Below, piece after piece: positions 21,938 through 49,903 of a stretch of 64,000 nucleotides of DNA. The DNA lies in contig NZ_CP147520.1 of NCBI RefSeq assembly GCF_037201975.1, forward strand, positions 5,952,001-6,016,000, given 5' to 3'. A program made the translations under genes and the position numbers. Every line of letters begins with the position of its first letter. Position 1 is the stretch's first letter. The stretch comes from Streptomyces sp. TG1A-60. Its GTDB lineage: Bacteria; Actinomycetota; Actinomycetes; Streptomycetales; Streptomycetaceae. A model generated the notes under the pieces. It had not been told where the DNA came from. It searched no databases and saw only the letters and a program-made list of their open reading frames with translations.

Positions 21938-23125
21938 GTGGAGCCACTGAGGGACGACGACCCGCGGAGCGTCGGCGGATACACCCTGGTGTGCCGGCTC
22001 GGCTCGGGCGGGATGGGCCAGGTCTATCTCGGTGAGTCGGCCGCCGGTTTCCAGGTCGCCGTCAAGGTCATCAAGCCGTCGGTGCTCGACGAGGACGGCA
22101 GGGCGCGTTTCCTGCTCGAAGTGGACAGCCTCAAGACGGTGTACGGGCCGTTCATCGCGTCGTTCGTCGCGGCGGACGCCCATGCGGACAGGCCTTGGCT
22201 GGTGGTCGAGTTCGTCGCCGGTCCCGACCTGCTGACGTATGTGAGCGGGCACGGGCCGCTGCCGCTCGTCGAGACCGCCAGTCTCGGCGCTCTGCTCGCC
22301 GAGGGGCTCGGCACGGTGCACGAGGCCGGGCTGCTGCACCGTGACCTCAAGCCGCAGAACATCCTCCTCTCCTCCTACGGCCCCAAGGTGATCGACTTCG
22401 GTCTGGCCGTGCTCGCGGAGCGGCGCTCCACCCTGACCGCGACCGGCGTGGTGGTCGGCTCGGTCCTGTGCATGCCGCCGGAGCAGGCCCGGGGCGAACA
22501 CCAGCTCGACCACCCGGCCGACGTCTACGGTCTCGGCGCCGTCCTGCTGTACGCCGCCACCGGCCACTACCCCTACACCGGGCCCAGTTGGCAGGCGGTC
22601 GCGCTCAGGATCGAGGACCCGGCCACTCCGCCCGACCTGAGTGGCCTGCCGTCCGAGCTCGTGCCGCTGGTCTCCGCGATGCTCGCGCTCGACCCCGCCG
22701 ACCGACCGACGCTGGAGCAGGTCACCCAGCGGTTGGTGGGCGTCATCGCCGACCGTGGCCTGACCGCTGCCCAGGCCAAGCGCCGGCTGACCGACCGCAC
22801 CCCCGCTGTCGAACTGCCCGAGCCGTCCACGACGAATGACCTCCCGGAGGGGTGGACCGGCTACACGCCGACCGTCGTGGACGTGGCATCGCGGGAGGAC
22901 GACGAGGCGCAGTGGGGCGAGCGGTCCGACGCCGAGCACGATGCCGAACCGGACGACTACTGGTCCGCTGCCCCGTCCGATGCCCCGCCTGCCGAGGTTC
23001 CGGTGCCGTCGGCCGCTTCGGCGCCGGGAGACGCCGCCTCCGCGCGCACCGGCGTCCGTCCCTCCGCACCGCTGCGGATCGCCGAGCAGCTGCGGGCGGC
23101 CTACGCGCGGGAGGCGCGTTTCTGA
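21938..23125 (+). CDS. Ser/Thr protein kinase, soluble (defence island)
   Basis: 395 aa from GTG 21938, with GGGGGAGG upstream. Complete Hanks-type kinase domain in the first 275 residues: Gly-rich loop LGSGGMGQVYLG (21-32), Lys43 in VAVKVIK, HRDLKPQN (134-141) with catalytic Asp, and DFG (153-155). The remaining 120 residues are acidic and Pro/Ala-rich with no membrane helix or sensor domain, unlike PknB-type kinases. It lies 219 nt before an SNF2 helicase and adenine methyltransferase. Kinases occur in the Pgl/BREX type 2 phage systems (PglW) and other defence loci, so a regulatory role in this island is inferred. Confidence 0.9.
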   Translation: MEPLRDDDPRSVGGYTLVCRLGSGGMGQVYLGESAAGFQVAVKVIKPSVLDEDGRARFLLEVDSLKTVYGPFIASFVAADAHADRPWLVVEFVAGPDLLTYVSGHGPLPLVETASLGALLAEGLGTVHEAGLLHRDLKPQNILLSSYGPKVIDFGLAVLAERRSTLTATGVVVGSVLCMPPEQARGEHQLDHPADVYGLGAVLLYAATGHYPYTGPSWQAVALRIEDPATPPDLSGLPSELVPLVSAMLALDPADRPTLEQVTQRLVGVIADRGLTAAQAKRRLTDRTPAVELPEPSTTNDLPEGWTGYTPTVVDVASREDDEAQWGERSDAEHDAEPDDYWSAAPSDAPPAEVPVPSAASAPGDAASARTGVRPSAPLRIAEQLRAAYAREARF

Positions 23126-23344
23126 ACGGGCCCGTCCCCGAACGGCTCCGGCAGGCCCGTCCCGCACGTGACCTGGCATATCGGCACGGCCCTCGCGGAC
23201 CGCGTGAAACACTTGCGGCGCACTGATCGCGACGCGTTCTCCACGTGCCCGACGGCACGCGCAAGGCATGTGCATGCCGGGTGACCCAGCCGGCGACGGC
23301 GGGACCCGCAGCGCGGCGGGCGGTAAAAAGGCGGGGCGTACGGC

Positions 23345-26300
23345 ATGACGACGGCAGGGACGATGGAGGGGACACCGGTGGCACAGCAGGGGGAGACCCG
23401 GTATCCGCCCGGCGCGCAGATTCTCGTACGGGACGAGGAGTGGCTGGTCAGGACCGCTGTTCGGGCCGGCCATCCGGACGACGGTGACCAGATCGAGGCG
23501 ATCGGTGTCTCGGAGTTCGTCCGGGACGAGGAGGCCGTCTTCTTCACCGGGATCGACAAGGTCGAGCTCCTGGAGCCGGAGAAGACGCTTCTGGTGCCCG
23601 ACACCTCCTCCTACTTCCGCCGGGGCCGGCTGTTCCTCGAAGCGGTTCTGCGCAAGACGCCGCTGCCGCAGTCCGAGCGCGGTCTCGCCCTGACCGACCG
23701 TTTCCTCCTGGACCCGCTTCCCTACCAGCAGCGCCCGGCGGAACTCGCCCTCTCGATGCGCAACCTCCGTCCGCGCATCCTGATCGCCGACGTCGTCGGC
23801 CTGGGCAAGACGCTGGAGATCGGGCTGACCCTCGCCGAGCTGATCCGGCGCGGCCGGGGCGAGCGCATCCTGGTGGTCACCCCGCAGAGCGTTCTGGAGC
23901 AGTTCCAGCACGAGCTGTGGACCCGTTTCTCGATTCCGCTGGTGCGGCTCGACTCCCTGGGCATCCAGCGCATCCAGCGGGAGATCCCCGCCGGCCGCAA
24001 CCCCTTCACGCACTACAAGCGCGTCATCATCTCCGTCGACACGCTGAAGAACATCGGCCAGTACCGGCACCACCTGGAGCGTATCCAGTGGGACGCCGTC
24101 GTCATCGACGAGTCGCACAACCTGATCAACCAGGGCAGTCAGCGCCGCGCCCTCGCCGAGACCCTCGCCCCGCGCACGGACGCCCTGCTGCTGGCCAGCG
24201 CCACCCCGCACAACGGTGACAAGCGGTCCTTCGCCGATCTCATCACCCTCCTCGACCCGGCGGCGATCGCCGACCCGGACCACTACGACCCGGCCGCCGA
24301 CCTCGGCCATCTCTTCATCCGCCGTACGAAGATCAGCCCCGAGGTCCGCAACGGCATCGGCACCGAGTGGGCGGACCGGGGCCCCACCAGGTCCCTGCAC
24401 TGTGCCGCCACCGAGGCCGAGGAGAAGATCTTCGCGGAGCTGACCGAGCACTGGCTGCCCGCGCCGTCCGGCAGCACCGAGTTCGGCACGGCGGACCAGG
24501 ACCCGGGCGGCTCGGTGAGCACCGACCCGCTGTTCGCGTACAACGTCCTGAAGACGTTCCTGTCGTCCCATGTCGCTCTCGCCGAGACGGTCACCCGCCG
24601 TATCGCCGCACTGGAGGAGCGGGTGCGCAAGGCCGGGGAGAAGGGCCTGCGCCCTGACCCGGCGATCGGCCCGGAACAGGCCGCCCTGGCCCGCCTGCGC
24701 GCCCTCACCGCTTCCATGGGCGACGGCACGGCGCAGGGCGACTCCGCCAAACTGGACGCGCTGGTCGAGCAGTTGAGGGAGATCGGGGTGGGCCCGCGCA
24801 GCGACACCCGCGTCGTCGTCTTCTCCGAGCGGGTGCCCACCCTCAAGTGGCTGGCGAAGGTGGTGCCCCCACGGCTCGGCTTCCGCGCCGACAAGGCCGA
24901 CAAGGGCGTGGTGAAGGCCGTACGGGTCATGCACGGCGGCCTGAGCGAGGAGGAGCAGCGGCTGTGCCGGGAGGCGTTCGGCCTCGCGGGCGATCCGGTG
25001 CGGCTGCTGTTCACCGGCGACGTCGCCTCCGAGGGCGTCAACCTGCACCGCCAGTGCCACCAGCTCATCCACTACGACATCCCGTGGTCCCTGATCCGTA
25101 TCGAACAGCGCAACGGCCGTATCGACCGCTACGGGCAGCGCCACGAGCCGCAGTTCCGGGCGCTGATCCTCACCTCCTCCCAGCCTGGCGCGAAGGACGA
25201 CCGGACCGTCGCCGAGAAGCTCCTCGCGCGCGAGGAGGAGGCCCACAAGCTGAACGGCACCGCCGAGGCGGAGACCGGCTACTACCGGGCCGACGAGGAG
25301 GAGCGGCGCCTGATCCGCGAGCTGGTCGAGGGCGGCACCGTCGAGGACTTCCTCGCCTCCGCGCCCGCCGCCGACGACACCGACCTCGCCGGGCTCTTCG
25401 GACAGGTCGACACCATCACCGAGGAGGAGCTGCCGCCGCGCGCGGAGGTCCCCTCGCTGTTCGGCGGTGACACGGCGGCGTTCGTGAACACCGCGTTCGC
25501 GGAGCTGTACGCGGACCGGGCGGAGGACGCCATCGGCCTCTCGTACGCCGAGGACGCGAAGCGGCGCCCCTCCTTCTCCCTCTCCCCGGACAAGGCGCCC
25601 GACCTGCTGCGCCGGCTCAAGGCGCTCCCGCCGTCCTACCTCAAGGAGCAGGGCGTCGCCGAGCGCATGATCCTCACCTTCGACCGGGAGCTGGCGCAGG
25701 ACAAGCTGACGGAGGCCCGCGAGGCCACGGACTCCATGTGGCCCACGGTCTCCCACCTGAGCGACATCCACCCGGTGGTCGAGTGGCTCACCGACAAGGT
25801 CCTGGTGCAGTTCGGGCGGCAGGAGGCCCCCGTCATCACCTCGCCCCATGTCACCCACCCCACGTTCCTCATCCAGGGCATCTACTCCAACGCCCTCGGC
25901 CGCCCCACCGTCGTGCGCTGGATGGCCGTCAGCTCCGAACCCGGCGCCCCCGTCGAGCCGATGACCGACGCCCTGGCCGCGGCCCGGGTGGGTCCCGCGC
26001 TCGCCCGCACCGGCGGCCCCCGCGATCTCGCCCGCCTCCAGTCGCTGGTCCCGGCGGTGGTGGCGGCGGCACGCGACCACCTGGAGAAGTACAAGGCCGA
26101 GTGGGCGGAGCAGATCAGCGGCCCGCTCACCGAGTACCGCGACCGGCTGAAGGAGTGGCGCCAGGATTCCCTGCCCGGCGCGAGTGCCCGGCGGGAGCGG
26201 CAGATCGAGGAGACCGCCGACGAACAGGCCCACCTCCTGGAGCAGTTGAACACCACGGGCCTGCCGCTGCTGCGGGTCCTGGCGGTCCTGGACAAGCCGG

Positions 26301-26365
26301 CGCCCGACGGCGCGCTGCCGGAGGCACCCGGTGGCGAAGAGTGCGGAGAGGGAGAACCGACGTGA
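23345..26365 (+). CDS. SNF2-type helicase, DrmD-like
   Basis: 1006 aa from ATG 23345 (ATG 23363 or GTG 23381 are possible alternatives). SF2/SNF2 motifs in order: ADVVGLGKT (148-156), VIDESHNL (253-260), ASATPHNG (284-291), FTGDVASEGVNL (555-566) and IEQRNGRIDRYGQ (585-597). The last 300 residues show no known domain. Size and motifs match the SNF2 helicase of class 1 DISARM (DrmD) and similar proteins placed beside methyltransferases. The stop overlaps the methyltransferase start (GTGA). It probably moves on DNA or remodels DNA-protein contacts for the methyltransferase or a nuclease partner. Confidence 0.9.
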   Translation: MTTAGTMEGTPVAQQGETRYPPGAQILVRDEEWLVRTAVRAGHPDDGDQIEAIGVSEFVRDEEAVFFTGIDKVELLEPEKTLLVPDTSSYFRRGRLFLEAVLRKTPLPQSERGLALTDRFLLDPLPYQQRPAELALSMRNLRPRILIADVVGLGKTLEIGLTLAELIRRGRGERILVVTPQSVLEQFQHELWTRFSIPLVRLDSLGIQRIQREIPAGRNPFTHYKRVIISVDTLKNIGQYRHHLERIQWDAVVIDESHNLINQGSQRRALAETLAPRTDALLLASATPHNGDKRSFADLITLLDPAAIADPDHYDPAADLGHLFIRRTKISPEVRNGIGTEWADRGPTRSLHCAATEAEEKIFAELTEHWLPAPSGSTEFGTADQDPGGSVSTDPLFAYNVLKTFLSSHVALAETVTRRIAALEERVRKAGEKGLRPDPAIGPEQAALARLRALTASMGDGTAQGDSAKLDALVEQLREIGVGPRSDTRVVVFSERVPTLKWLAKVVPPRLGFRADKADKGVVKAVRVMHGGLSEEEQRLCREAFGLAGDPVRLLFTGDVASEGVNLHRQCHQLIHYDIPWSLIRIEQRNGRIDRYGQRHEPQFRALILTSSQPGAKDDRTVAEKLLAREEEAHKLNGTAEAETGYYRADEEERRLIRELVEGGTVEDFLASAPAADDTDLAGLFGQVDTITEEELPPRAEVPSLFGGDTAAFVNTAFAELYADRAEDAIGLSYAEDAKRRPSFSLSPDKAPDLLRRLKALPPSYLKEQGVAERMILTFDRELAQDKLTEAREATDSMWPTVSHLSDIHPVVEWLTDKVLVQFGRQEAPVITSPHVTHPTFLIQGIYSNALGRPTVVRWMAVSSEPGAPVEPMTDALAAARVGPALARTGGPRDLARLQSLVPAVVAAARDHLEKYKAEWAEQISGPLTEYRDRLKEWRQDSLPGASARRERQIEETADEQAHLLEQLNTTGLPLLRVLAVLDKPAPDGALPEAPGGEECGEGEPT

Positions 26366-29300
26366 CGTACGACTCGCTGGTCAACCACGGCGACTACCTC
26401 TCGGCGCACTACCTCGCCGAGGTCCTGCCGAAGGACCTGAAGGCCAAGGACGGTCTCCTCGCACGCTGGGCGACGGCCGAGGACGACGCGCGCCGCGCCC
26501 ACTCCGCCGCCGTGGCCGCGGCGAAGGCGGCGGGCGCCGACCCGGCCACCGTCCCGCCCCGCGCCCGCACGCCCCGCGAGGGCCTGCGCGCCCTGCACGG
26601 CCCCTACTTCGCGAGCCGGGCCGACTTCGCGCAGGACGCCGCCGCCCTCGCCGAACCGGACGCGCCCGTCCCCGCCGACTGGGCCAAGCGCCTCACCGAC
26701 CTCCACCTGGCCACTCTCCGCGCTCTCGGTTACGGCGACGCGCACGAGCAGACCGTCACCGTCCACCGTGCCGGACACGAGTACAGCGTCCAGGCCGCGC
26801 ACGCCGAGCCGGGCCTCATCGCGGTCTCCTGCGGCTGGACCGCCGAGCCCGACGCCGCCCTCGACCCGGACGGCGCGGGCCGCCTGCTGCACCCGGTGGC
26901 ACTGGAGGCGTCCGGCCGCCTCACCGACGCCAAGGCGGTCACCGACTTCCTCTTCGAGGGCGAGGAGCCGCCGCGTTACGTCCTTCTCCTCGCCGGTGGC
27001 GTCATCGTCCTCGCGGACCGGCTCGCCTGGCACGAGGGCCGCTATCTCGCCGCCGACCTGGACGCCGCGCTCAACCGCCGCGACGACCGTAACGGAGGCG
27101 AACTCGACACTCTGGCCGCCCTGTTCGGCGCGGACTCGCTGCGCGTACCCGAGGAGGGCGGCGCCTCGCCGCTCGCCGGGTTCGTCGACAAGTCCGGCAA
27201 GCACGCCGTCGGCGTCTCCACCGAACTGCGCGAGGGCCTGCGGCTGTCCGTCGAGTGGATCGCCAACGAGGTCCTGGCCCGCCTCCGCTCGCCCGAGAAC
27301 GGCGTCTCCCCGCAGCAGCTCGACGACCCGGCGCGCCTCGCCAAGGAACTCAGCCGCGAGTCGCTGCGCTACCTCTACCGCATCCTGTTCCTGCTGTACG
27401 CGGAGGCCCAGCCCGCGCTCGGCATCCTGCCCGCCGACTATCCGGAGTACGCGCGCGGCTACGGCCTCCAGCGCCTCGGCGACCTCGTCGTACGCGACCT
27501 GGTCGGCGAGCGCTCCCGCCGCGGCTTCCACCTGTACGAGTCCCTCGACCTCCTCTTCCGGAAGGTCGAGGAGGGCCACCGGGAGTACGGCAGCGAGCCC
27601 GAGGACCTGATCGCCGAGGAGGCAGACCGGGCCGCGACGAAGGCGGAGCAGGAGGCCGCCGCACAGCTCGCCGCCGGAGCCGTCACCCGGGCCGAGTACA
27701 CCGACCTGATCCGCGAGGCCGACCGTGCCCGCCGCGCCGCCGCCCGCAGCGCCGACGTGGGCCTGCGCTTCGAGCCGCTGAAGTCGGAGCTGTTCCAGAA
27801 GGACGCCGTACGCCTCATCTCGTCGGGCCTCATCGAGAACCCCTCCTACGAGGGGGAAGCCGAGGGTGCGGACGAGGGCGGGAGCGGGGGCCCGAAGCGC
27901 GGCGAGTTCCTGGACACGCGGCTGCGCAACGAGACACTGCACAAGGTGCTGCGCCGCCTGATGCTCACCAAGGGCAAGGGGCGCGAGCGCGGCGGCTTCA
28001 TCTCGTACGCCCAGCTCGGCATCAACCAACTGGGCGCCGTCTACGAAGGGTTGATGTCGTACTCCGGCTTCATCGCCGAGGAGGACCTGTACGAGGTCGC
28101 CAAGGGCGGGGACGCGTCCGGCGGCAGCTGGATGATCCCGGCGTCACGGGTCCAGGACTACCCGGAGTCGGTGTTCGTCGAGCGCGCCCACGAGGAGACC
28201 GGCCGGCCCATCCGTGTGGTCCACCCGAAGGGCTCGTTCGTCTACCGCCTGGCGGGCCGCGACCGCCAGACCTCGGCCTCGTACTACACCCCGAAGTCCC
28301 TCACCGAGGTCACCGTCGAACTGGCCCTCAAGCACCGCCTGGACCAGGACGGCACCACCACCCCGGCGCGCGAACTCCTGGAGTGGAAGATCTGCGAGCC
28401 CGCGCTCGGCTCGGGCGCGTTCCTCAACGAGGCCATCGACCAGGTGGCGGCGGAGTACCTGCGGCGCCGCGAGACCGAGTTGGCGCCACGCCGTGTCGAC
28501 GCCGAGCAGCGCCAGATCGAACTCCAGAAGGTCAAGGCGTACATCGCCCTCCACAACGCGTACGGCGTCGACCTGAACGCCACCGCCGTGGAGCTGGCGG
28601 AGGTGTCCCTCTGGCTCAACTCCATGCACCCCGGCATGCGGGCCCCCTGGTTCGGCCTGCACCTGCGGCGCGGCAACTCGCTGATCGGCGCGGGCCGGAA
28701 GGTGTACGCGGCGGATGCGCTGCCGCACGGCGACTGGCTGTCCAAGAAGTCGCCGCTGCCGCCGACCGAACTCCCCTTCCGCGCAGGGCCGTTGCCCGAG
28801 GGCTCCGTTCACCACTTCCTCCTCCCGGCGATCGGCTGGGGCGCGGTCGCAGCCGAACCGGAGGCGAAGAAGCTCGCGGAGGATCAGGCGAAGGCGCTGG
28901 GGCAGTGGCGCAGGGGCGTCCAGCGGGCGCCGAAGGCATACAAGCCCTTCGAGGAGCAGGAAGAGGAGCCGAGGGAGAAGCGGCAGAAACGGTACGACCG
29001 CTGGGCCAAGGCGGCGGAGAAGACGGAGATGTGGCGCGTCCAACGGGTCGCCCGCCGGGCCGAGTTCCTGTGGAGCCTGGTCGCCAAGCGCCTGGAACTG
29101 TCGGAGCGGAAGGTGTCCCGGCGGATCGACGTCTGGGGCGCCGACTGGCTCGAACCGTCCGCCGAGGCGACCGACAAGCAGAAGGTCCTCGACGACCTGA
29201 CCGCCCTCGGCACACCGTACTGGCGGCTGAAGACCGTCATGGACGCCTGGTGCGCGCTGTGGTTCTGGCCGCTGGACAAGGTGGCCGACCTCGACGGTAC

Positions 29301-31971: not shown

Positions 31972-32288
31972 TCTGGCACAGGGGTGTCGCTGTCATGAGG
32001 CCCTTGAGCGCACGCTGTGAGGGGGCAAGCCCCTCCCGTCAATCCTGACGCGGATTGGCTCGCGCATTTGTGGGCAGGCGGTCGAGATCCGCTGACACCT
32101 CTGCTGGCGAGGTCTCAACCCTCAGGGAATCAGTGCTGCGAAGTGGATCAATTCACTCCGGATGTGTGGATTGATCTGCATCTCTTGACCTGCTGGCGGT
32201 CCACCATCAGTCTTACGAGGGCAGACGAGGTCGCATGGCCTTGTCTGCCCTCGTTCAGTCTTGGACGAGGTCGGAATGGGGAGGGTTC
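31972..32288. other. intergenic stretch with two hairpins
   Basis: 317 bp of lower GC than its surroundings. It holds a small hairpin at 32019-32035 (GAGGGG / CCCCTC) just after the methyltransferase and a stronger one at 32215-32254. No gene is supported. Confidence 0.6.
32215..32254 (+). terminator. perfect 12-bp hairpin before the RAMA gene
   Basis: ACGAGGGCAGAC (32215-32226) and GTCTGCCCTCGT (32243-32254) pair perfectly around 16 nt. It lies over an upstream in-frame ATG (32235), which argues that translation of the next gene begins later. It may be a terminator or attenuator separating the RAMA gene from the methyltransferase. Confidence 0.6.
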
Positions 32289-32687: not shown

Positions 32688-32696
32688 CGCTTGATA

Positions 32697-32750
32697 CGTA
32701 CCGCGCCCGCGCCCGCGCCTGGCTCGTGGTCTCGGTGCGGGCGCGGTACG
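32697..32750. terminator. bidirectional terminator-like hairpin
   Basis: CGTACCGCGCCCGC (32697-32710) and GCGGGCGCGGTACG (32737-32750) pair perfectly over 14 bp. It lies between the convergent RAMA (+) and DUF397 (-) genes. Confidence 0.8.
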
Positions 32751-32774
32751 GCGCGCACTGAAGGAACGGAGGGG

Positions 32775-33867: not shown

Positions 33868-33955
33868 GCCAGGACACCTCCCACACGTCCGCCCCGCTGC
33901 TCGCGCCCAACGCGACCATGGTCACGTTCAGTTACCCATACTGTCCACCCTGCGT

Positions 33956-33982: not shown

Positions 33983-34026
33983 CGCTGACCTGGTGAACAG
34001 ACCCCTGACCACGTCAGATTGGGGCC

Positions 34027-38461: not shown

Positions 38462-39632
38462 CCGGCTGACGCTGACGAACTTCAAGGCGTTCCAGCACGC
38501 GGACCTGGAGTTGGGGCCGCTCACTCTGCTGACCGGTCTGAACTCCTCCGGCAAGAGCAGCGTCCTGCAGGCGTTAGCCATGCTGCACCAGTCGTACACG
38601 GCGGGGGATCTCGACCGGGCGGGCGAGGCGGCCCGCGAGGGACAGCTGAAGATCGGGACCGTCCCCGGCAACGGCTTCCTGCTCAACGGCGAACTCGTCG
38701 GCCTCGGCACCGGCCGGGACGTCCTGCACGAGAACTTCACCGAGGACGAGCCGGAGATCACGCTCGCCGTGAACGAGGGCGCGTACCGCTACTCCTGGAC
38801 CGTCGCCTACGAGCCCGAACAGAACCTGCTGCCGCTGAGCGCCGTCGACCTGCCGCTCACCAGCGAGGGTGCCACTCCGCCGGTCGGAGACGCCGCCGTC
38901 ATCCCCGGCTACTTCACCGCGGGCTTCCAGTACCTGCACGCCGACCGGATCTCCCCGGCCGAGTTCTACCCGCGCGACCACCACACGGCCATCGGCCGCG
39001 GCTTCCTCGGCGTACGCGGCGAACACACCGTCAACTTCCTTCGCCACCACGCCACCGACGAGGTCCCCGAGGGGCCGCTGCGGCACCGGAGCACCGCCGC
39101 GAAGGGGCTGCTCGCGCAGGCCGCCGCCTGGGTGGGGGAGCTGTGCCCGGGGGTGGACATCCAGGCCGCCGCCATCGACGGCACGGACGTGGTGCGGCTG
39201 TCGTACGGCTTCTCGGGCCCGAACGGTACGCGCCGGCGCCCGACCAACGTCGGTTTCGGGCTGACGTACGCCCTGCCGATCGTCGTGGCCTGCCTGACCG
39301 CGCGGCCCGGCTCGCTCGTCCTCCTGGAGAACCCCGAGGCGCATCTGCACCCGCAGGGGCAGACCCGCATGGCGGGGCTCGCCGCCGCTGCCGCGGCACA
39401 GGGCGCGCAGCTCGTCGTCGAGACACACAGCGACCATGTGCTGAACGGTGTTCGCCTCGCGGTGAAGCGAGGGGTGCTCGCCCCTGAGCAGGCCGTCCTG
39501 CACTACTTCCGGGGCGACGGTGAGGGCGTCGACGTCGTCAGCCCGAGCATCGACCGGGACGGCCGGCTCGACCAGTGGCCCGAAGGGTTCTTCGACGAGC
39601 TGGAGAACACGCTCGACCAGCTGCTCAGCTGA
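38454..39632 (+). CDS. AAA ATPase with DUF3696 (OLD/RecF-like), module B
   Basis: 392 aa from GTG 38454. ABC/SMC-like ATPase: LTNFKAF, Walker A GLNSSGKSS (residues 28-36), a GFGLTYALPIVVACL signature region, Walker B VLLENPEAHLHPQGQ and ETHSDHVLNGVR with the switch His. The C-terminal DUF3696 part (LHYFRGDGEGVDV to the end) is complete. DUF262 and DUF3696 ATPases are commonly neighbours, and this overlap indicates co-translation. No TOPRIM nuclease domain is seen, so a nuclease would have to come from elsewhere in the island. Confidence 0.9.
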   Translation: MIDRLTLTNFKAFQHADLELGPLTLLTGLNSSGKSSVLQALAMLHQSYTAGDLDRAGEAAREGQLKIGTVPGNGFLLNGELVGLGTGRDVLHENFTEDEPEITLAVNEGAYRYSWTVAYEPEQNLLPLSAVDLPLTSEGATPPVGDAAVIPGYFTAGFQYLHADRISPAEFYPRDHHTAIGRGFLGVRGEHTVNFLRHHATDEVPEGPLRHRSTAAKGLLAQAAAWVGELCPGVDIQAAAIDGTDVVRLSYGFSGPNGTRRRPTNVGFGLTYALPIVVACLTARPGSLVLLENPEAHLHPQGQTRMAGLAAAAAAQGAQLVVETHSDHVLNGVRLAVKRGVLAPEQAVLHYFRGDGEGVDVVSPSIDRDGRLDQWPEGFFDELENTLDQLLS

Positions 39633-39703: not shown

Positions 39704-40654
39704 GTGCCGCTGCTGTTCCTGAACGAGAGATCCTGCGGAACCGGATGCGACCCGGCGCGCGCCGAGCGTGCCATGACCGGGCTCGCCGAGGCGGTGCTCG
39801 CGGTGTTGCTGGCCGACCGACCCGGCACGGTGCTGGTCAGCCGGGAGCCCATCACCGGGCTCCAGATCGCCGACGGTCATCCGATCGGCAAGTGGCACGG
39901 GGCGCCGCGCAACAAGGAACTGTGGCAGCGGCTGCTCCTGATGCAGAGCAAGTGGCCGTACCGGACCGTCTTCCCGGAGGGGGAGAGCTACTTCGACGTC
40001 GAGTACCGCCACCGGGGCGAGACGGTCGACGGGCTCGGCGCGGCCCACCTGATGGACGGGCTCGGCGTCTCCTTATTGGTGGACGCGTGCTGGAGTGAGC
40101 ACCAACTGACGCTGGAGCGCGAGCAGTTGGTGGAGAACGACGACGGGGAGTCGGACGAGTCCGAGACCAGCGAGGTCTCCGTCCGGCACATGGCGGAGCA
40201 GGATCACTTCGAAGCGCACCGGGCCTGGATCAAGGACGGCGTAGAGGCGGTCCGCAGGGGTGGGCTGAACGCCGTACGGCGGGGCGAGGAGTTGTGGGAG
40301 GGGCGGGCGTCCCTCTTCCCGCACCTTCGGTTCCTGCCCAGGGTCGAGGCGGATCTGCGGCAGCTGCGTGAGGCATGGGTGAGGCCGCTCGGCATCCGGC
40401 TGGCCGAGCTGGACCAGACGGTGGCCGCCTGGAATCCGGCGACCGAGCCCGACGGTCCGCAGTGGCGGTCGAAGATCACGCCGGAAGGCCAGAACCGCAG
40501 GAAGCTGTGCGTGTTCGAGGACTTCGACGGCAGGTCGCGACACTTCGACACGCATGCCCGTTTCACTCCCGGGCCGGGGCGCGTGTACTTCCGTGTCGTG
40601 GCCGAGCCGAAGACGCTGCACGTCGCCCACGTCGGCCTCAAGATCGGCATCTGA
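39704..40654 (+). CDS. unknown 316-aa protein, third gene of module B
   Basis: 316 aa from GTG 39704, with a GAGGGGGAG ribosome binding site. Not a family I recognise. Visible features: N-terminal LLFLNERSCGTG, IGKWHGAPRNKELWQRLLLM, a central acidic stretch (VENDDGESDESETSEVS), the segment AEQDHFEAHRAWIKDGVEAV and a C-terminal KITPEGQNRRKLCVFEDFDG. It contains no membrane helix. It lies 71 nt after the ATPase and 113 nt before the giant helicase in the same direction, so it is very probably part of the defence operon. Confidence 0.8.
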   Translation: MPLLFLNERSCGTGCDPARAERAMTGLAEAVLAVLLADRPGTVLVSREPITGLQIADGHPIGKWHGAPRNKELWQRLLLMQSKWPYRTVFPEGESYFDVEYRHRGETVDGLGAAHLMDGLGVSLLVDACWSEHQLTLEREQLVENDDGESDESETSEVSVRHMAEQDHFEAHRAWIKDGVEAVRRGGLNAVRRGEELWEGRASLFPHLRFLPRVEADLRQLREAWVRPLGIRLAELDQTVAAWNPATEPDGPQWRSKITPEGQNRRKLCVFEDFDGRSRHFDTHARFTPGPGRVYFRVVAEPKTLHVAHVGLKIGI

Positions 40655-40767: not shown

Positions 40768-43700
40768 GTGCGACCGACCCTCGCCGCCGAACAGGTACGC
40801 GACAGCCTGAGCCAGTACCTGTCGACGACGTACGCCCTGGCGGACGAAAGCACCCGCGGCGCCCTGGAGCGGTTCCTCGGCGACGCCGAGGACGGGATCT
40901 TCCGCGGGCCCTATCTGCGGATCCGTACGCCCTTCAGGGCGGCCGAGGGCGACGACTGGCAGCGGCACCTGACCTGGTGGCCGCGCCCCCCTTCCACCCG
41001 CACCGCCACCAGGAGGCGGCCTGGGAGCGGCTGTCCACGCTGCACGGGCCGGCGAGGCCCACCCTGGTGACCACCGGCACCGGCTCCGGCAAGACCGAGT
41101 CCTTCCTGGTGCCGATCCTCGACCACTGCCGCCGCGAGCGCGAGGCCGGGCGGGACGGGGTCAAGGCCGTCCTGCTGTACCCGATGAACGCCCTGGCCAC
41201 CGACCAGGCCCACCGCATCAACAACCGCCTCGACGACCCCAGGGACGCGCGGCTCAGGGACGCGGGCGTACGGGCGGGCCTCTACATCGGTGACCAGGCG
41301 TCCAAGGAGTTCAAACAGGCCAACCCGCGCGTGGCCGTCGACCGCGACGAGATCCGCCGCACCCGCCCCGACATCCTGATCACCAACTACAAGATGCTCG
41401 ACCTGCTGCTCCAGCGGCCCGAGGACCAAAGGCTGTGGCAGTCGGAAGGCGGCGGAGCCGGCGGATCGGCCCTGGCCTACGTCGTCCTGGACGAGTTCCA
41501 CACCTACGACGGGGCGCAGGGCACCGACGTGGCGATGCTGCTGCGCCGGCTCGGCGCCATCACCGGCCTCGCCGAGCCGGGCCGGCCGCTCGGCAAGGTG
41601 TGCCCCGTCGCCACCTCGGCCACCCTGGGCGAGGGCGCGCCCGGCATCGGCGGCAGCTCCATGCTGGACGTCGCGGAGCAGGTCTTCGGAGTGCCGTTCC
41701 CGCCGGACGCAGTGGTGGGCGAGAGCCGGCGCGGTGTTCAGGACTTCGCAGGGGACAGCGACTTCACGCTGCCGTTCCCGCCGCCGCACGAGGTGGCCGC
41801 GCTCGGCGACCCCACCCGGGACCGGGAGGCGCTGGACCAGCTCGCGGCGGCCTTCACCGGCAAAAGCGGACTGAGCCCGGAGCAGCTCGGCCGGCAACTG
41901 CGCCGCCACCGGCTGACCGCCGCCGTCCTGGAGATCCTGGACGGCAGCCCGCGCACCATGGCCGAGGTGATGGAGGTCCTGCCGCGCTACGCCTACCACT
42001 GGGGCATGGCCGTGCAGCAGAACCCGGCCGTCGCGGCCCGCGCCCTGGCCCGGTACGTGGCACTGCTGTCGACCGCGCGCGACCCGAAGAATCCGGGCAG
42101 CCCGCTGCTGTCCATCGAGATCCACCACTGGGTGCGGTCCGTGTCGCGGGTGCTGCGCGGAATCAGCGCCGCGCGCGCGGAGTTCCGCTGGGACGACGAG
42201 CGGGTGGTCTCGGGCGGGAAACTGGCCCGGAGCTCAAGTGGCGGTGCGTCCAAGCCGGACGGCGGCGCCTCCGGGCCGGACCAGGCCGCGGACGCGGCGG
42301 ACGCGGTGCCCGCGGGCGACAGTGCCGTGCCGCCCGCCCAGGTGTTCCTGCCCGCCGTCTTCTGCCGCGAATGCGGGCGCTCCGGCTGGGCGGCGCTCTC
42401 CCCGGAAGCAGACCCGGCGGAGCTCGACATGACCGCCACGAAGATCCGCCGCGCCTCGGTGAGCCGGGACAAGCGCCGCGTACGCAACATGATCGCCGCC
42501 ACCCCGACCCAGGCCCACGACGCGGCCTTCGCCACCGAGAAACCCCGCAGCGGGCCGATCGTGATGGTGCTCGACGGGACGAGCGGACGGCTGCGGCCCG
42601 TCTCGCCCGAAGCGGACTTCGAGACGGATCAGGGCGACGGCGCACCGCGCGCGCCGAAGGCGCTGCACGACAGCGCGTTCGTGCTCACCGACCTGGCCGA
42701 CGACCGGGCGGCGCAGGGCGACCAGTGCCCGGCCTGCCGCACCTTCAACTCCATCCGCTACCTCGGTACCGGCCTCGCCGCGCTCGCCGCGGCCTCGATC
42801 ACCCAGCTGTTCACCGGCGGCGAGCTCGACAAGAACCTCCGCGAGGACAAGACCCTCCTGTTCAACGACTCGGTGCAGGACGCCGCCCACCGCGCCGGTT
42901 ACGTCGCCAGCCGCTCGTACACCTTCTCCTTCCGCTCGCTGCTCGCCAGCCGCATCGACGAGGACGAACCGGTCGCGCTCAGCGATCTGGCGGCCGACCT
43001 CATCGCGGACGTCGTCGACAGCAGGGCCGTACAGGCCGCCGTCATCCCGCCCGACCTGCACGTCGTGCGCGGCGTGGACGCCCTCCTGTCCGGGCGCGGC
43101 CACGGCACCGAGCCCACCTGGGAACTCATCGCCCAGCGCCTCGCGTTCTCGGCCGTCCTGGAGTTCGGACTCCGCTCCCGGCGGGGCCGCACCCTGGAAC
43201 TGACCCGTACGGTCGCGGCGGACGTCCCCCTCTCCGACCCCGGCGCCGTCGCCGAGATCGTCCGCGAACTGCTGCACACCACGCCCGGCGACATCGCCCT
43301 GCCGGACGGCTCCCTGCCCGGACCCGACGACTGGATCGGTCACGTCCGGGGCCTCCTGGAGCGGTTGCGGACCCGTGGCGCCGTCCGGCACGCCTGGCTC
43401 GACGACTGGATCAACGAGGCCGGTGTGCGGCGCTGGCTGATCTGGGGCGGACGCAGGACCGGCATGCCCGCCTTCCCGCCCGGCGTCTCCGCCCCCGGCT
43501 TCCTCCTCGGCAGCCCCAAGCAGGGCAGCGCCGACTTCGACGTGGTGACCGGACGCCTCGGCTGGTACCAGGACTGGACCCGGCGCAGCCTGGGCCTGCG
43601 CCCCGACGCGGCGAACGCCTTCCTCGTCCGGCTGCTGCCCGCCCTCGTCGACGCAGGTGTGCTCTCGGCCCGCACCGCCAGGGACGGCACGACCCGCGTG

Positions 43701-46700
43701 TTCGGACTCCAGCCCGGCCACATCCAGGTCCGCAAACTGGCGGACGACCTCGTGGCCGACGCCTCCGCGCACTGCCCGGACTGCTCCTGGCAGCAGACCG
43801 TCCACCCCGACCTGGCCGACCAGTGGCACGGCCGGCCCTGCCCGCGCTACCGCTGCGGCGGCCGGCTGCGCACCGGACAGGACCTCGAAAGCGGCGTACG
43901 GCGACGGGACTTCACCGAGGACTTCTACCGGCGGATGTACCGCGACGCCGGAGTGTTCACCATCAACACCGCCGAGCACACCAGCACCCTCAGCCGCCCC
44001 AAGCGCGAAGCCGTCGAGAAGGCGTTCCGGGCGGGCACCGAAGCGCACTACGCCAACCCGCAGGTCCTCTCCTGCACCCCGACGCTGGAACTGGGCATCG
44101 ACATCGGTGACCTGTCCGCAGTCGTCCTCGCCTCGTTGCCCAAGGGACCGGCCAACTACGTCCAGCGCGTCGGCCGCGCGGGCCGCGCCACCGGCAACGC
44201 CTATCTGCTCACCATGGTCGACCGGGGCCCCAGAGACCGCTACTACCTGGACGACCCCCGGCAGATGATCGCCGGTGACATCCAGCCGCCCGGCTGCTAC
44301 CTGTCCGCCATCGAGATCCTGCGCCGCCAGTACCTCGCGCATCTCCTCGACCTCGCGGGCGCCGGACGCCTGCCCTCGGCACCGGAGGACGGCGGCGCCC
44401 CGATCCACCCGACGCCGCACCTGGCCACCGCCCTGTTCGGACCGTCCGGCTGGCTGGCCGAGTTCCGGCGGGCCGCGCTCGCCGACGGAGCCCGCCTCGT
44501 CGAGATCTTCCTCGGGCTCTTCCCGCCGTACGACGAGAAGAAGGGCACCGGCGTCAGCCCGCAGGCCGCCGACGAACTGCGCGCCTACGCGACCGGCGGC
44601 CTGGCCGACGCCCTGGACGGCGCCCGAACCCAGTGGGACAGCCGGCGCGACGAGATGCGGCGCCGGATGGAAGCCATCGACGCGGCACACCGGGCCCTGG
44701 TCGCCGGTGACCCCGAACACGACCGGCAGGGAAGGGAGTTGAGGGCCGAGCGGCGTGCCGTCGCCTACCGGGCGGGCGACATCAGCCGCGGTACGGCGCA
44801 CGGCACGCTCGTCGACCTCGGTCTGCTGCCCAACTACAGCCTCGTCGACTCCGTGACCGAGCTGGAGGCCACGCTCACCTGGCGGGAGGAGCAGACCGGC
44901 GCGCGTGCGCGTGCGGAGACGGGTGCGGGTGCCCGCGGCGAGCACCGGAGCAAGGTGCTCAAGTACGACCGTTCGGCGCGCCTGGCCCTGGAGGACTTCG
45001 CGCCCGGCAACCACTACTACGTACAGGGCTACAAGCACCGCATCACCGGCCTCGACATCGGCAGCCCCGGCCGCCCGTCCTGGCTGTGGTGGCGGATCTG
45101 CCCCGACTGCGGACACGTGCGCACCCACCAGGCACGGCAGGACTCCAGCGCCTGCCCGCGCTGCCGCTCGGCCGCCATCGGCGACGTCGGCTGCCTGCAC
45201 AAGGTGCTCGTACCCCACCGCGTCCTGGCCCGGGACGAGCGCGACGACGTACGCGTACGGGACGACACCGACGAACGGGAGCGCCGCCACTACACCGTCG
45301 TACCGGCCGTGGACATCCCCCAGGAACACGTCGAGTCGGGGTGGAAGCACCAAAAGGCCACCTTCGGCTGGGAGTTCACCCGGCAGGCGGTGATCCGGCA
45401 CATCAACGTGGGCGCGTCCCGCGTGGACGGCGGGGCGGACGACGCCTTCGCGGGGCGCCGGGTGCGGCTCAACCCCTTCTGGGTCTGCGACTCCTGCGGC
45501 TACGCCGACCCCGACGGCGGGCCCGACCGGCAACAGGAGACGCTCGTCCCGGTCCGGGCCGCCAAGTACCACCGGCCGTGGTGCCCGAGACTGCGGGACG
45601 GGCTCGACGAGAGCAGGGCCGCACAACAGGGCGTGAAACTGCTCCTCGCGCACGAACTGCGCAGCGAGGCACTGCGCATCCTCATCCCCGCCGTCACCGC
45701 CCACACCGCGGAACGGCTCGCATCCTTCAAAGCGGTGCTCCTCGCGGGCATCGCCCGCAGCTACGGCGGCGACCCCGACCACCTGGCCGTGGTCACCGAC
45801 TCGATGCCCGAACCCGGCGGCGACGGGGACGTCCGCAGACACTTCCTCGTGCTGTACGACACCCTGCCCGGCGGCACCGGCTATCTGCACCGGCTGGCGG
45901 GACCGGACGGGCTGCACGACGTGCTCACCCGGGCCCGGCAGGTCATCGAATCCTGCGTCTGCGTCGCCGAGGGGCGGCCCGCCTGCCACCGCTGCCTGCT
46001 GCGGCACGTCGGCAACAGCGAGTACGAACTGGTCTCCCGCGAGCACGCCCTGGACATGCTCGGCGAACTGCTCGGCCGGGCCGGCGACGGCTGGCACGTC
46101 GAAGAGGCCGCCACCACCAGGGACATCTCCCTGGTGCAGCAGGTCGAGAGTGAACTGGAGGCCCTGTTCCGGCGGGGACTGCTGGCCTGGGCGGAACGTG
46201 ACGACGAGGTCAGCGTGCGCACCGCGCTCACCCCGGACGGGGAACGCGACACCACGCTGCGGTTCACCGCACCCGACGGCACGGTCTGCGGCTGGCGCAT
46301 GGAGACACAGACCGACCTCGGCTTCACCGTGCCCGACGTCGTATTCCGCAGCCTCGACGACGACCGGCGGCGCGTCGCCGTCTACCTCGACGGCTACCGC
46401 TACCACGCGAGCCCCCACCACAACCGGATCGCGGACGACGCGACGAAACGCACCCGGCTGCGCTCCGAACACGGCTGGCAGGTCTTCCAGTTGACCTGGG
46501 ACGACGTGAGGGCCTGGACCGGGCAGTCGAAGCCGGCCGCCGACCCCGCCTGGGTGCCCTACCAGAACACGGCGCAGAAGACCGCTTCGGACATTCACCG
46601 GAGGATGCACGGCAGCGACCCCCGCGACCTGCCGAATTTCGTCTGGGCCAACCCCGTCGAGACCCTGATCGGCTACCTCACCAGCCCGGACGCCGGTGTG

Positions 46701-47615
46701 TGGCGGCGGCGCACACAGAGCGCGCTGGCCGGGTTCGCGGCGGTCTCGGCGACGAGCAGAGCCCTGGCGGACGGCACGGAGACCGCAGACCGCCTCGTCG
46801 AGGCACTGACAGGCAGGAGGCTGTCCGGAGGACGTGGCGGAGTACAGGTCATGGCGACGAAGGACAGCAGCGGCTGCCCCCTCACCATCGCGCTCGACCT
46901 GCGCAAGGGGCAGGCCGGCGCGGCCTGGACCGGGCTCACCGTCCTGGACGACAGCCCGGAGACGATCAGCGGCGACGAGAACGCGCACCGCAGACGCTGG
47001 CAGGCCTGGCTGTACTGGTCCAACCTGCTCCAGTTCCTCAACGAGGGCGACGGCGACGGCGTGCAGCTCGCGGCCAGCCAGGTACCCGGCTTCGACCCGG
47101 TCGAACTGGCGGTGACCGGCGGCGCCGGGTGGCTGGAATCGCGGCGACGCGGACACGAGCGGGAAGCGGACGGCGCCGAGCAGACGAGTGAGGTCACGTC
47201 CGTGCGCGCCGAAGCGGTGCGCGACCCCGCCTGGGACGAGGTCATCGCCTATCTCGTCGAGGAGGCCGGTCTGGCCGAACTCGCCGAGGGCCTGGCCGCC
47301 CTCGGAGTCCCCGCACCGGAAGCCGGCTTCGAACTGGGCGACGCGGCCTGGCCCGCCGAACTGGCCTGGCCCGCGCACCGCATGGGCGTCGTCCTGGCCC
47401 CGGACCGGGACGCCGACGGCACCCCGGACCGCGATGCGGAGGACCGCGACCGGGCGTACGCGCGAGCGGGCTGGCTGGTGCGCCCCGCGGCCGAGTGGGA
47501 TGTCCGGGAACTGGCGGACGCACTGGCAGGACCGGCCGCGACGGACAACCGTCCGGACAACGACAACGACAACGACAACGACGACGGCACCGACGACGAG
47601 GAGCGAGCACGATGA
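40768..47615 (+). CDS. giant DEAD helicase - DUF1998 - PD-(D/E)XK protein, one apparent frameshift
   Basis: Starts GTG 40768 behind AAGGAGGAG. The first 73 residues (YLSTTYALADESTRGALERF, GIFRGPYLRIRTPFR) are in one frame. The rest continues in the -1 frame after six C at 40986-40991, so one base seems to be missing. Total about 2282 aa. Order: Walker A TGTGSGKTES (about 100), DEFHTYDG (240), TSATLGEG (282), an 800-residue insert with Zn-knuckle cysteines, motif V LELGIDIGDL (1105), VI QRVGRAGRATG (1130), CPDCGHV..CPRC (1444), DUF1998 (1617-1750: DTLPGGTGYLHRL, CHRCLLRHV), then nuclease motifs PDVVF and YLDGYRYH (1857-1880). It resembles DrmA plus DrmB, or MrfA, fused to a nuclease. Confidence 0.88.
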
Positions 47616-49903
47616 CCGGCACCGGCACGCCGACCAAGGGCGTGACGCTCCGCCTGCTCGACAAGGCGGACAAGGAGATCGTCAAGCTGGACCGGGCGAT
47701 CGTCGGCGCGGTCTACAAGTTCCAGCACGAGTTCCGCAAGAACCCCGACGCGGGCGGCTTCGACCTCAAGCAGCTCAAGGGACACGAGCGGCTGTGGTCC
47801 GCGCGCGTCAACCGCGAATACCGGGCTCTGCTGCTCCGCCTCGGCGGCGACGACTGGCTCCTGGTCTCGGTCAAGCACCGCGGACACGTCCACCGGAACC
47901 TGGACCGCCTCGCCTACGGCATCAACCAGGTCACCGGTGCGATCGAGTACGTGGATCTCCAGGTCGTCGAGGAGGACGTCCTGCGCCGATCGGCCTCCAC
48001 GGCACCGGCGCCCCCGTCCACCCGTCCCGACGCCCCGGCCGCGCGGACGGAGGACGCGACGACGCTCTTCGCCCGGTTCAGCGCCCAGCAACTGGCCGAC
48101 CTGGGCGTGGCCGAGCCGCTCATCCCCATCGTCCTGAAACTGACCACGGACGACGAGCTGCTCGGCCTCGCCGAGTACGCGCCGCGGCACACCGGTGAAG
48201 TTCTGCTCCGGCTGCGCGACGGGATCCCGTACGAGCTGGTGAAGGAGCAGGTCACAGCGCCGGTCTCCGTCAAGGGCGACGAAGGCCCGGACGGGTCCCC
48301 CGCCGACGACTGGCAGGCGGCCGTCGACCGTTCGGGGGCCGTGGTGATCACGGACGACGCATCGCTGCGGAGCATCATCGAGGAAAGCGACTTCGGCCGG
48401 TGGAAGGTCTTCCTGCACCCCACGCAGGAGAAACTGGTGCATCGCACCTACTCGGGGCCGACCCGGGTCGGCGGTGGCCCCGGCACCGGGAAGACGATCG
48501 TCGCCCTGCACCGGGTGAAGCATCTCGTCGACCAGTTGCCCCCGGGCCACACCAAGCCCGTGCTGCTCACCACGTTCAACAAGAACCTGGCCGCCGACCT
48601 GCGTACCCGTCTGATGTCGCTGGGCGGCCCCGAGACGCTGGCCCGTGTCGACATCACGCACGTCGACCAACTGGCCACGCGTGTCGTCAGCGAGTCCGAC
48701 CCCGGCAACAGCAAGCGCAGGATCGACGACACCCAGGCCCTGCGTGAATGGCGGCAGCTCCTGGTGGAGGCGGGCGACAACCGTTGGGACGCGGAATTCC
48801 TGAGCGACGAGTGGAACCAGGTGATCCTGGGGCAGGCCGTCGCCTCCCGCGTCGACTACTTCAAGGTCCGGCGGGCCGGCCGGGGCCGCAGCATCACCCG
48901 TGCCGACCGTGCCGAGGTCTGGCAGCTCGCCGAGCGCTTCACCCAGCGGCTCGACGTCAAGGGTCTGGAAACCCACCGCCAAGTCGCCGAGCGGGCAGCC
49001 CAGTTGGAGATCGCCCGCAAGCACAAGATCGAGGAGCGCCGGCGGGACGAGGAGGAGCGCGGCGGCCCCGGCAACATCCACGCCGAGTCGGGCACCGGAG
49101 CCTGGCTGCGCTATCGCTACCGTCACATCGTCGTCGACGAGGCCCAGGACCTCAGCCCCGCGCACTGGAAGATGCTGCGCGCCATGGCGCCGCAGGAGCC
49201 GAACGACCTCTTCCTTGTCGGCGACACCCACCAGCGTATCTACGACAACCAGGTCACTCTCGGCAGCCTGGGCGTTCATATCCGGGGCCGATCCTCGAAG
49301 CTGACACTCAGCTACCGCACGACGCGCGAGATCCTGAAGTCGGCGATCCACCTGCTGGACGGGACTGAGTACGACGACCTCGATGGCGAGACCGACGACC
49401 TGGCGGGCTACCGGTCGGTGCTGCATGGACCGCGGCCGCTGCTGCGCCGTGCCGAAAGCTGGGAGCAGGAACTCGACCTGGTGGCGGATCAGGTGCAGGC
49501 GTGGCACGACGTAGCACGCGAGTCGGTTGCGATCTGCGTTCCGACGAATGACATGGCCGATGACGTGGTGGCCCGGCTCGCCAAACGAGGCATCATGTCC
49601 GCGAAGATCACCGGTGACGGGCCGCGACGGGACGAGGGCGTGCACGTCGGCACCATGTACCGCTTCAAGGGGCTGGAGTACCGGCGCATGATCATCGCAG
49701 GGGTCAGTGAGGGGAAAGTCCCGCGCTCCTCCGTGGATGCCTGGGAGCAGAGCGACCGGACACGCCACCAGCGCGAACTGCAACGGGCACGGTCTCTTCT
49801 CTTCGTAGCGGCGACCAGGGCTCGCGACGCCCTGGCCATCACCTGGAACGGGGAACCGAGCCGCTTCCTGCGCCCGCTGAGGGCGCAGAGTACGGGTGCT
49901 TGA
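47612..49903 (+). CDS. RelE-like domain fused to UvrD-like SF1 helicase
   Basis: 763 aa from ATG 47612, overlapping the giant helicase stop (ATGA). Residues 15-100 look like a RelE/ParE-fold unit (AVYKFQHEFRKNPDAGGFDL, LWSARVNREYRALLL, LLVSVKHRGHVHRNLDRL). After a linker comes an SF1 helicase: Walker A GGGPGTGKTIVA (about 285), TTFNKNLAADL, DEAQDLSP (508), VGDTHQRIYDN, LSYRTTREI and the late VHVGTMYRFKGLEYRRMII and VAATRARDAL. The ends and spacing fit the UvrD/Rep family, with a shortened 2B region. The toxin-like domain may bind RNA or ribosomes, or serve as a dimer or DNA contact. Last gene of the defence operon. Confidence 0.88.
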   Translation: MTGTGTPTKGVTLRLLDKADKEIVKLDRAIVGAVYKFQHEFRKNPDAGGFDLKQLKGHERLWSARVNREYRALLLRLGGDDWLLVSVKHRGHVHRNLDRLAYGINQVTGAIEYVDLQVVEEDVLRRSASTAPAPPSTRPDAPAARTEDATTLFARFSAQQLADLGVAEPLIPIVLKLTTDDELLGLAEYAPRHTGEVLLRLRDGIPYELVKEQVTAPVSVKGDEGPDGSPADDWQAAVDRSGAVVITDDASLRSIIEESDFGRWKVFLHPTQEKLVHRTYSGPTRVGGGPGTGKTIVALHRVKHLVDQLPPGHTKPVLLTTFNKNLAADLRTRLMSLGGPETLARVDITHVDQLATRVVSESDPGNSKRRIDDTQALREWRQLLVEAGDNRWDAEFLSDEWNQVILGQAVASRVDYFKVRRAGRGRSITRADRAEVWQLAERFTQRLDVKGLETHRQVAERAAQLEIARKHKIEERRRDEEERGGPGNIHAESGTGAWLRYRYRHIVVDEAQDLSPAHWKMLRAMAPQEPNDLFLVGDTHQRIYDNQVTLGSLGVHIRGRSSKLTLSYRTTREILKSAIHLLDGTEYDDLDGETDDLAGYRSVLHGPRPLLRRAESWEQELDLVADQVQAWHDVARESVAICVPTNDMADDVVARLAKRGIMSAKITGDGPRRDEGVHVGTMYRFKGLEYRRMIIAGVSEGKVPRSSVDAWEQSDRTRHQRELQRARSLLFVAATRARDALAITWNGEPSRFLRPLRAQSTGA

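Follow-up and report, generated by a model that had tools for sequence, protein, structure and literature searches.

A kinase-bearing ARMADA Type II locus of Streptomyces with Menshen and a regulator cassette between armB and armC

Gene content of the locus

The stretch of 64 000 nt analysed here (the window; positions 5952001-6016000 in the 7.83-Mb one-contig genome of Streptomyces sp. TG1A-60) carries two known defence systems, the second nested in the first. The outer one is ARMADA Type II (genes armA, armB, armC and armD), preceded by a gene for a Ser/Thr protein kinase. The inner one is a complete Menshen (three adjacent genes, nsnABC), which sits between armB and armC next to a cassette of regulatory genes of the WhiJ, BldB and AbaA types (Table 1); the interruption between armB and armC is ∼8.8 kb long. 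Window genes were checked by listing of open reading frames (ORFs), third-position GC content and profile searches.

A preliminary description of this DNA had named a kinase, a SNF2 helicase, an 1869-aa methyltransferase, a DUF262 protein, a DUF3696 ATPase and a protein of unknown family, all of which are present as ORFs with profile matches. Its view that several systems might be packed together holds as well, the systems being two. It had also placed all genes on the plus strand; the minus-strand regulators in the middle, between the methyltransferase and DUF262 genes, rule out a single co-directional operon. The many overlaps of 4-8 nt that it reported are found at armA/armB (4 nt), nsnA/nsnB (8 nt) and armC/armD (4 nt), whereas a gap of 219 nt separates the kinase gene from armA.

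Table 1. Features of the locus (window coordinates)
Feature	Position	Strand	Evidence
Ser/Thr protein kinase	21938..23125	+	Pkinase E=7e-38; no sensor domain recognised; C-terminal motif LR..YA
armA, SNF2/RapA (BrxHII-like) helicase	23345..26365	+	SNF2-rel_dom, Helicase_C
armB, 1869-aa N6-adenine methyltransferase (PglX/IIG-like)	26362..31971	+	Eco57I/MmeI_Mtase; PADLOC IIG model 870 bits
Small RAMA/DUF4357-like ORF	32235..32687	+	Pfam DUF4357 E 0.001, RAMA E 0.003, both below cut-offs
bldB-like DUF397 small protein gene	32522..33019	-	KSSYSG/CVEVA/VRDSK in translation, DUF397 marks named in PMC10294661
whiJ-like XRE-HTH/DUF5753 regulator	33016..33867	-	DUF5753 E=3e-46, HTH_31
Divergent intergenic region, candidate promoter for the abaA-cargo-armCD side	33868..34026	.	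position only
abaA-like HATPase_c_2 protein	34027..34485	+	HATPase_c_2 E=9e-10
nsnA, Menshen DUF262/GmrSD_N	37154..38461	+	PADLOC NsnA 425 bits
nsnB, Menshen AAA_21 + DUF3696 ATPase	38454..39632	+	PADLOC NsnB 386 bits
nsnC, Menshen	39704..40654	+	PADLOC NsnC 337 bits
armC, YprA/DruE-like DEAD helicase + MZB zinc domain	40768..47615	+	DEAD, Helicase_C, MZB; start inferred from relatives
armC C-terminal nuclease-like region	about 46113-46526	+	alignment to E. coli ArmC
armD, UvrD/GajB-like helicase, candidate RelE-like N-terminal domain	47612..49903	+	UvrD-helicase E=7e-23

The outer system is ARMADA Type II

ARMADA Type II is a relative of DISARM described in 2025 (Bell et al. 2025 preprint, PMC12458937). 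According to that preprint its genes encode, in this order, the SNF2 protein ArmA, the PglX-like methyltransferase ArmB, the YprA-like helicase ArmC with fused DUF1998 and Vsr nuclease, and the RelE-UvrD protein ArmD; in Escherichia coli all four genes were required and protection came without killing of the cell (PMC12458937). As a yardstick we used the E. coli plasmid locus L095 (NZ_CP074049.1), which has the residues mutated in that study at their published numbers: K136, D236, N971, G605, K110, D234, K266 and D454.

All eight residues are conserved in the window proteins. ArmA is 37% identical to E. coli ArmA, with K155/D255 in place of K136/D236 (Walker A/B), and ArmB has its NPPW motif at N1193 and the glycine of the SAM motif at G683. 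BLAST aligned ArmC over residues 6-1824 of the sequence used (28% identity, E=1e-180) and ArmD over residues 23-753 (32%, E=3e-110; K294/D509 corresponding to K266/D454) with their E. coli counterparts, in both cases nearly end to end. Thus the window has ArmA, ArmB, an ArmC with fused MZB/DUF1998 and a UvrD/GajB-like helicase ArmD, in the order A-B-C-D. The 'giant DEAD-DUF1998-nuclease' of the preliminary description corresponds to the DEAD/MZB(DUF1998) ORF ending at 47615; its nuclease part has no Pfam nuclease match and becomes visible by alignment of the C-terminal region with E. coli ArmC, where an LDG..H block is kept by eye. In the proposed RelE-like/UvrD fusion the UvrD part is confirmed. 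The N-terminus of ArmD enters the E. coli alignment at residue 23 and has a Pfam ParE_like match (E=0.0087) below the cut-off; its single-sequence fold was poor (pLDDT 56).

That the locus might instead be a true DISARM or Druantia variant is a view we consider highly improbable. It shares with class 1 DISARM the pair of SNF2 helicase and adenine methyltransferase and a YprA-type helicase, and the DrmD-like score is 274 bits, under the curated cut-off of 610. Membership in DISARM was rejected on these scores and for lack of partners, the fused ArmC giving 298 bits with DruE3 vs 52 bits with the best DrmA model. The fusion of DrmA and DrmB functions with a nuclease, and the added kinase, had been anticipated, and a DISARM relative with these functions in one protein, a nuclease-like domain and a kinase is indeed what lies here; the relative is already named ARMADA Type II. 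With its 298 bits DruE is the closest PADLOC model of ArmC, and it is likewise a helicase-nuclease, acting on DNA that contains single-stranded DNA (ssDNA) (PMC13192584). The nuclease region, however, aligns with that of ArmC, which is Vsr-type according to PMC12458937, and not PLD.

Druantia types have type-specific sets of DruE partners. For the ten proteins scanned, the best 25 families per protein included no separate DrmB, no DrmC, no DruH and no DruABCD, and Druantia membership was rejected for want of a type-specific partner; armD, the gene order and the eight functional residues fit ARMADA Type II.

Two other ARMADA-like loci have unusual layouts. On a Tsukamurella plasmid (L096) ARMADA-like genes stand right after genes for a helicase, for a DUF1998 protein and for another UvrD protein; a DISARM-like set may here have been joined to ARMADA. 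On a Cylindrospermopsis plasmid (L100) the order is, by annotation, apparently armC-armD-armA-armB, with the module order reversed.

A Ser/Thr kinase marks one ArmA clade

The kinase gene upstream of armA is a new feature relative to the described ARMADA Type II. Its association with armA was followed in two samples. Among 199 genomes of the genus searched with ArmA, 37 gave a match at 1e-30, strong (>600 bits) in 30 genomes (32 places) and weak only in seven. Upstream sequence is available for 31 of these strong places, window included, and all 31 have a kinase gene immediately before armA; the 32nd (L051) starts at a contig end. An ArmA alignment run against species genomes gave at least 539 confirmed relatives, of which the best 80 were kept. 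The resulting ArmA tree has 114 proteins; five loci have no upstream sequence. Left out of the tree were L130 and L137, considered to repeat the contigs of L051 and L058, L163 for its short match and L168 for its length of <700 aa. The kinase is directly upstream in 61/61 informative loci of one clade (SH-aLRT branch support 99) and in 0/48 outside it, so that its presence needs one change on the tree.

The clade covers at least nine genera: Streptomyces, Micromonospora, Frankia, Planomonospora, Sphaerisporangium, Actinomadura, Nocardiopsis, Saccharothrix and Glycomyces. Sphaerisporangium album, which belongs to it, has the kinase, while S. cinnabarinum, whose ArmA falls in another clade, has none; this contrast suggests that the kinase goes with the lineage of ArmA rather than with that of the host. 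Linkage of the kinase, SNF2 and methyltransferase genes persists in relatives down to ∼40% identity, far beyond chance. As background, 210 kinases were found at 1e-20 in seven genomes (∼62 Mb), about one per 290 kb, and at this density a same-strand kinase ≤1.5 kb upstream is expected in ∼0.3% of loci. The set kinase-armA-armB-armC-armD recurs both with and without Menshen; the modules noticed in the preliminary description thus do co-occur in other genomes. A plasmid of Streptomyces cellulosae (NZ_CP109251.1) has an uninterrupted kinase-armABCD locus, annotated with whole genes. Two different kinase-ARMADA loci were seen together in each of two genomes (L046 and L058 in G169, L047 and L061 in G057).

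When 61 adjacent kinases were placed on one tree with 32 non-adjacent ones (L137 and L144 left out, the latter needlessly), 54 of the adjacent ones formed a clade apart from the 32 others, with support 95, or 93 without the long-branch row L143, and the inner branching of this clade resembles, by eye, that of ArmA. Six adjacent kinases (L055-L058, L134 and L150) form a separate clade. A single origin of all adjacent kinases was rejected: holding all 60 together (L143 omitted) gave P=0.010 in the approximately unbiased (AU) test. The gene was therefore probably exchanged at least once, in one direction or the other, and yet a kinase was kept in place.

Most adjacent kinases end, after a low-complexity tail, in a motif [LMI]R..YA, found in 52 of the 61 adjacent kinases and in 0 of 27 non-adjacent ones, these 27 being among the best-scoring of the seven genomes and not all 210. 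An initial pattern was too strict (35/61) and was loosened to the present one after the sequences had been viewed. The motif is absent from the group of six, L143, L040 and L184. Strict patterns for HRD and DFG match 55/61 and 58/61 adjacent kinases; of the six without an HRD match, five have HRDLKAQN.

Other defence systems based on methyltransferases also have a Ser/Thr kinase, namely BREX type 2/Pgl (PglW) and MADS (MAD6). Membership in either was rejected, the window kinase scoring 41 of the required 990 bits with PglW and 109 of 460 with MAD6. In CoCoNuT the TerY-P triads (PMC11090510) similarly keep a Ser/Thr kinase with a restriction-type system; unlike here, that kinase has a zinc ribbon and comes with VWA and phosphatase genes, and the system is McrBC-like, not ARMADA. 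The words 'kinase' and 'Menshen' appear nowhere in the main text of PMC12458937, supplements aside, and the linkage of kinase and ARMADA is not described in those passages of PMC12904381 and PMC11090510 that mention ARMADA or YprA with kinases.

The kinase could be a neighbour that only controls transcription of the arm operon, through an AfsK- or CapK-like input on a repressor, without being a functional member of the defence complex. Its gene lies upstream, 21-308 nt from the aligned ArmA start, and could have its own transcript; kinase-repressor control of immune operons has a precedent in CapK/CapS (PMC13373217); and the best NCBIfam match of the kinase is AfsK, whose cut-off of 1300 bits is far above the 203 bits scored. 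A WhiJ-type HTH gene does stand upstream of the kinase in the uninterrupted locus L056 and in L118, which amounts to only 2 of 62 loci within the stretches examined, WhiJ-type genes being the one repressor family looked for. Since the kinase also appears to follow the ArmA lineage rather than the host and has a private C-terminal motif, we regard a purely transcriptional role as unlikely. In L056 (667-1507) the WhiJ-type gene is accompanied by small partners and is placed there, not at armB-armC.

The armB-armC junction holds regulators and varied cargo

Among 62 loci of the kinase clade armC directly follows armB in 23, and a whiJ/bldB(/abaA)-type cassette occupies the junction in 30 (23 with all three genes, six without a detected abaA and one partial). 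The rest comprise four loci with an insert lacking the cassette, two where armC was not found and three that were too short. Since cassettes and kinases were detected by BLAST thresholds, some incomplete cassettes may have been put in the wrong class. Of 30 HTH matches in the slot, 29 are antisense and one, a second copy in L039, is sense; an earlier count of HTH and DUF397 genes had taken the antisense strand only, while the HTH recount took both strands. In a quick tree the slot WhiJ-type proteins (30 rows, one of them from the Nocardia locus L185, which lies outside the kinase clade) are interspersed with other paralogues, requiring eight changes, six of them forced by starred branches. The cassette was thus acquired or exchanged several times, and a single origin is unsupported.

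Where the whiJ/bldB pair lies antisense at this junction, transcription of armCD and of the cargo should begin at a divergent promoter beside abaA. WhiJ9 was reported to bind the iosA-whiJ9 intergenic region and to activate iosA, and loss of bldB to raise abaA paralogues (PMC10294661). Direct repeats of the WhiJ9 kind were sought in 33868-34026; the longest is 7 nt, which gives no support. The regulators CapK/CapS (PMC13373217) also stand beside immune operons and share a GHKL/HATPase fold with the abaA-like gene; they belong to other families than the XRE-DUF5753 and DUF397 proteins seen here.

The inner system, NsnABC, is known as Menshen. It has all three genes adjacent, with strong profile scores, and differs in lying inside another defence operon. 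Menshen occupies the slot in 12 loci (the window, L031-L036, L038, L039, L042, L114 and L127). Other cargo includes HEC-01A (L041 and L118), HEC-01B (L118), an AAA_21 ATPase (L120), EACC1 with a caspase-helicase (L044), EACC1 just under the cut-off (L167), a WXG100/Tox-REase-2 protein (L043) and an IS transposase (L042). Outside the kinase clade GmrSD (L170), AAA_21 (L192) and GTPase (L191) genes lie behind armB, with armC not within reach. Of 20 slot proteins scanned (all against Pfam, ten against PADLOC) 13 had a match of any kind. A GmrSD-family gene between two core genes of a methylation-based system is known also from the BREX locus on pEFER, where brxU is inserted between brxC and pglX (PMC8565348); that is BREX with a single type IV enzyme, and here it is ARMADA with a three-gene system and regulators.

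On the NsnA tree, whose 13 slot rows include L106, slot Menshen needs four changes, at least two of them forced; hence Menshen entered the slot at least twice, and a single origin of the nested system is unsupported. The eight nearest NsnA proteins, that of the window among them, group in a single clade of slot copies only, which roughly follows ArmA. Menshen without ARMADA genes was found in stretches L101-L105 and L107. As the lone Menshen of L101 carries the same cassette, exchange by recombination at the cassette would be possible. L106 (G131:C13) has armB, a whiJ/bldB cassette and Menshen, with no armC behind them in the stretch examined.

Could this be an ordinary defence island, in which independent systems piled up at a hot spot, without functional link, and the insertion between armB and armC was an accident? 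The existence of Menshen without ARMADA, the varied and partly unknown cargo and the commonness of WhiJ-type genes would all fit. Yet inserts occur at the same junction in many loci with armC-armD following in most (in L035 armC is fragmented, and in L040 none was found), Menshen came in at least twice, and the orientation of the HTH gene is almost constant; we find this explanation somewhat unlikely.

ArmB has a clade-specific insert and a mosaic C-terminus

Near residues 976-1075 the window ArmB has an insert specific to the clade; it lies before the NPPW motif and is flanked by conserved ALWFWP and D-W-L blocks. Measured in the 91 proteins with an ArmB ORF of ≥1300 aa, the site is 21-119 aa long (median 92) in 48 kinase-clade proteins outside the group of six, 7 aa in the six accompanied by the other kinase, and 5-18 aa in 37 non-kinase proteins. 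The insert can be one event on the tree and is a lead only, though a natural candidate for kinase contact.

Toward its C-terminus ArmB is mosaic. In blocks of 100 residues beginning at 1201, identity is 32-57% to L031, whose ArmA is 85% identical to that of the window, 29-57% to L036 and 50-88% to L032-L034. In the 3′ part of armB (29960-31971) GC drops from about 70-76% to 58-60%. Together these observations suggest an exchange of target specificity.

State of this copy and flanking genes

At about 40970-41000 the frame of armC shifts (the first ∼75 codons vs the rest) against 13/13 relatives compared, and the first-ATG reading of the giant ORF is consequently not the real N-terminus. Could the locus be a decaying remnant without function? 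The frame break speaks for this, as do the bldB-like gene, which is truncated, with an apparently disrupted DUF397 tail that overlaps the foreign-looking RAMA ORF, and the extra minus-strand genes in the slot. On the other side, armA, armB and armD are full length with intact catalytic residues, and a single break can be an assembly error; it would concern this copy only, because relatives have armC as a single ORF. We treat decay as a serious possibility but not the one we favour. In L035 armC is apparently in several pieces.

The RAMA protein of the preliminary description exists as an ORF, its RAMA/DUF4357 matches falling below the Pfam cut-offs. This ORF was not called in the nearest relatives, and no tblastn match was listed in the related loci compared. 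Two further minus-strand genes in the slot (34612-36117 and 36086-36919) encode a protein of unknown family whose C-terminus is hydrophobic (by eye CorA-like) and a phosphotransferase of the APH family; neither was called in the nearest relative, L031.

Eight of ten flanking ORFs scanned had matches, all to ordinary families: short-chain and zinc dehydrogenases, carboxylesterase, glycosyltransferase, polysialyltransferase-like protein, acyltransferase, methyltransferase and GH43. The polysialyltransferase-like gene (PF07388, 51869-53242) lies downstream and adjoins the glycosyltransferase and acyltransferase genes. No tRNA was found in the window, and no Rfam family at gathering scores.

Discussion

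We think it probable that the locus represents a kinase-bearing subtype of ARMADA Type II, with Menshen and a WhiJ/BldB/AbaA-type cassette nested between armB and armC, and with the kinase switching between marking and attack. The gene content and order, the homology with ARMADA Type II, the catalytic residues, the association of the kinase with one clade and the recurrence of cassette and cargo are all read directly from the compared sequences.

A working model can be drawn as follows. ArmB, aided by the SNF2 motor ArmA, would methylate adenines at a site set by the ArmB C-terminal region and so mark self DNA. Phage DNA that is unmarked, or aberrant while replicating, would be engaged by the helicase-nuclease ArmC and the helicase ArmD, which would unwind and cut it without killing the cell; DruE, for comparison, is reported to load on DNA with 3′ ssDNA and to cut (PMC13192584). 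The upstream Ser/Thr kinase may toggle the system between marking and attack. Probably it phosphorylates an Arm protein contacted via the conserved C-terminal helix, and the clade-specific ArmB insert would be the first candidate target. The attack genes and the cargo, Menshen included, may cooperate and may be expressed apart from the marking genes armAB, perhaps in a manner tied to development. Controller proteins of restriction-modification systems likewise separate expression of attack from that of marking.

A more daring version would make the kinase an obligatory fifth subunit that licenses attack by phosphorylation of the ArmB insert, and would have the repeatedly captured WhiJ/BldB pair put armCD and a changeable second system (Menshen, HEC-01, caspase-helicase) under the Streptomyces life cycle; this version we find doubtful.

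Several observations weigh against the subtype with a switching kinase. The association of the kinase is one event on the tree, so that insert and kinase amount to a single coincidence and not to repeated evidence, and the group of six compared in the AU test was picked after the tree had been seen. The gap of 219 nt makes a separate kinase transcript possible, and both kinase activity and control by WhiJ are predictions from sequence. As to the slot, 23 of the 62 kinase-clade loci have no insert and hence no split of marking from attack; seven of the 20 scanned slot proteins are without a family match, and four of the ten given to PADLOC match a defence model. The slot and lone labels are not significantly clustered on the NsnA tree (79 of 500 shuffles were as low). 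DUF5753 regulators are common, six genomes having 14-27 matches each, and the presence of one in a cargo slot could be hitch-hiking. Finally, the frame break in armC means that this copy may be inactive or mis-assembled.

Control of methylation-based defence by phosphorylation is little understood. A kinase tied to one ARMADA lineage in at least nine genera, and probably kept despite gene exchange, makes its role directly testable in tractable Streptomyces. The armB-armC junction appears as a natural slot for the repeated insertion of defence systems and regulators of a developmental type, and thus as a tangible example of the way in which composite immune operons are assembled. Through this slot development of Streptomyces may be linked with defence against phages.

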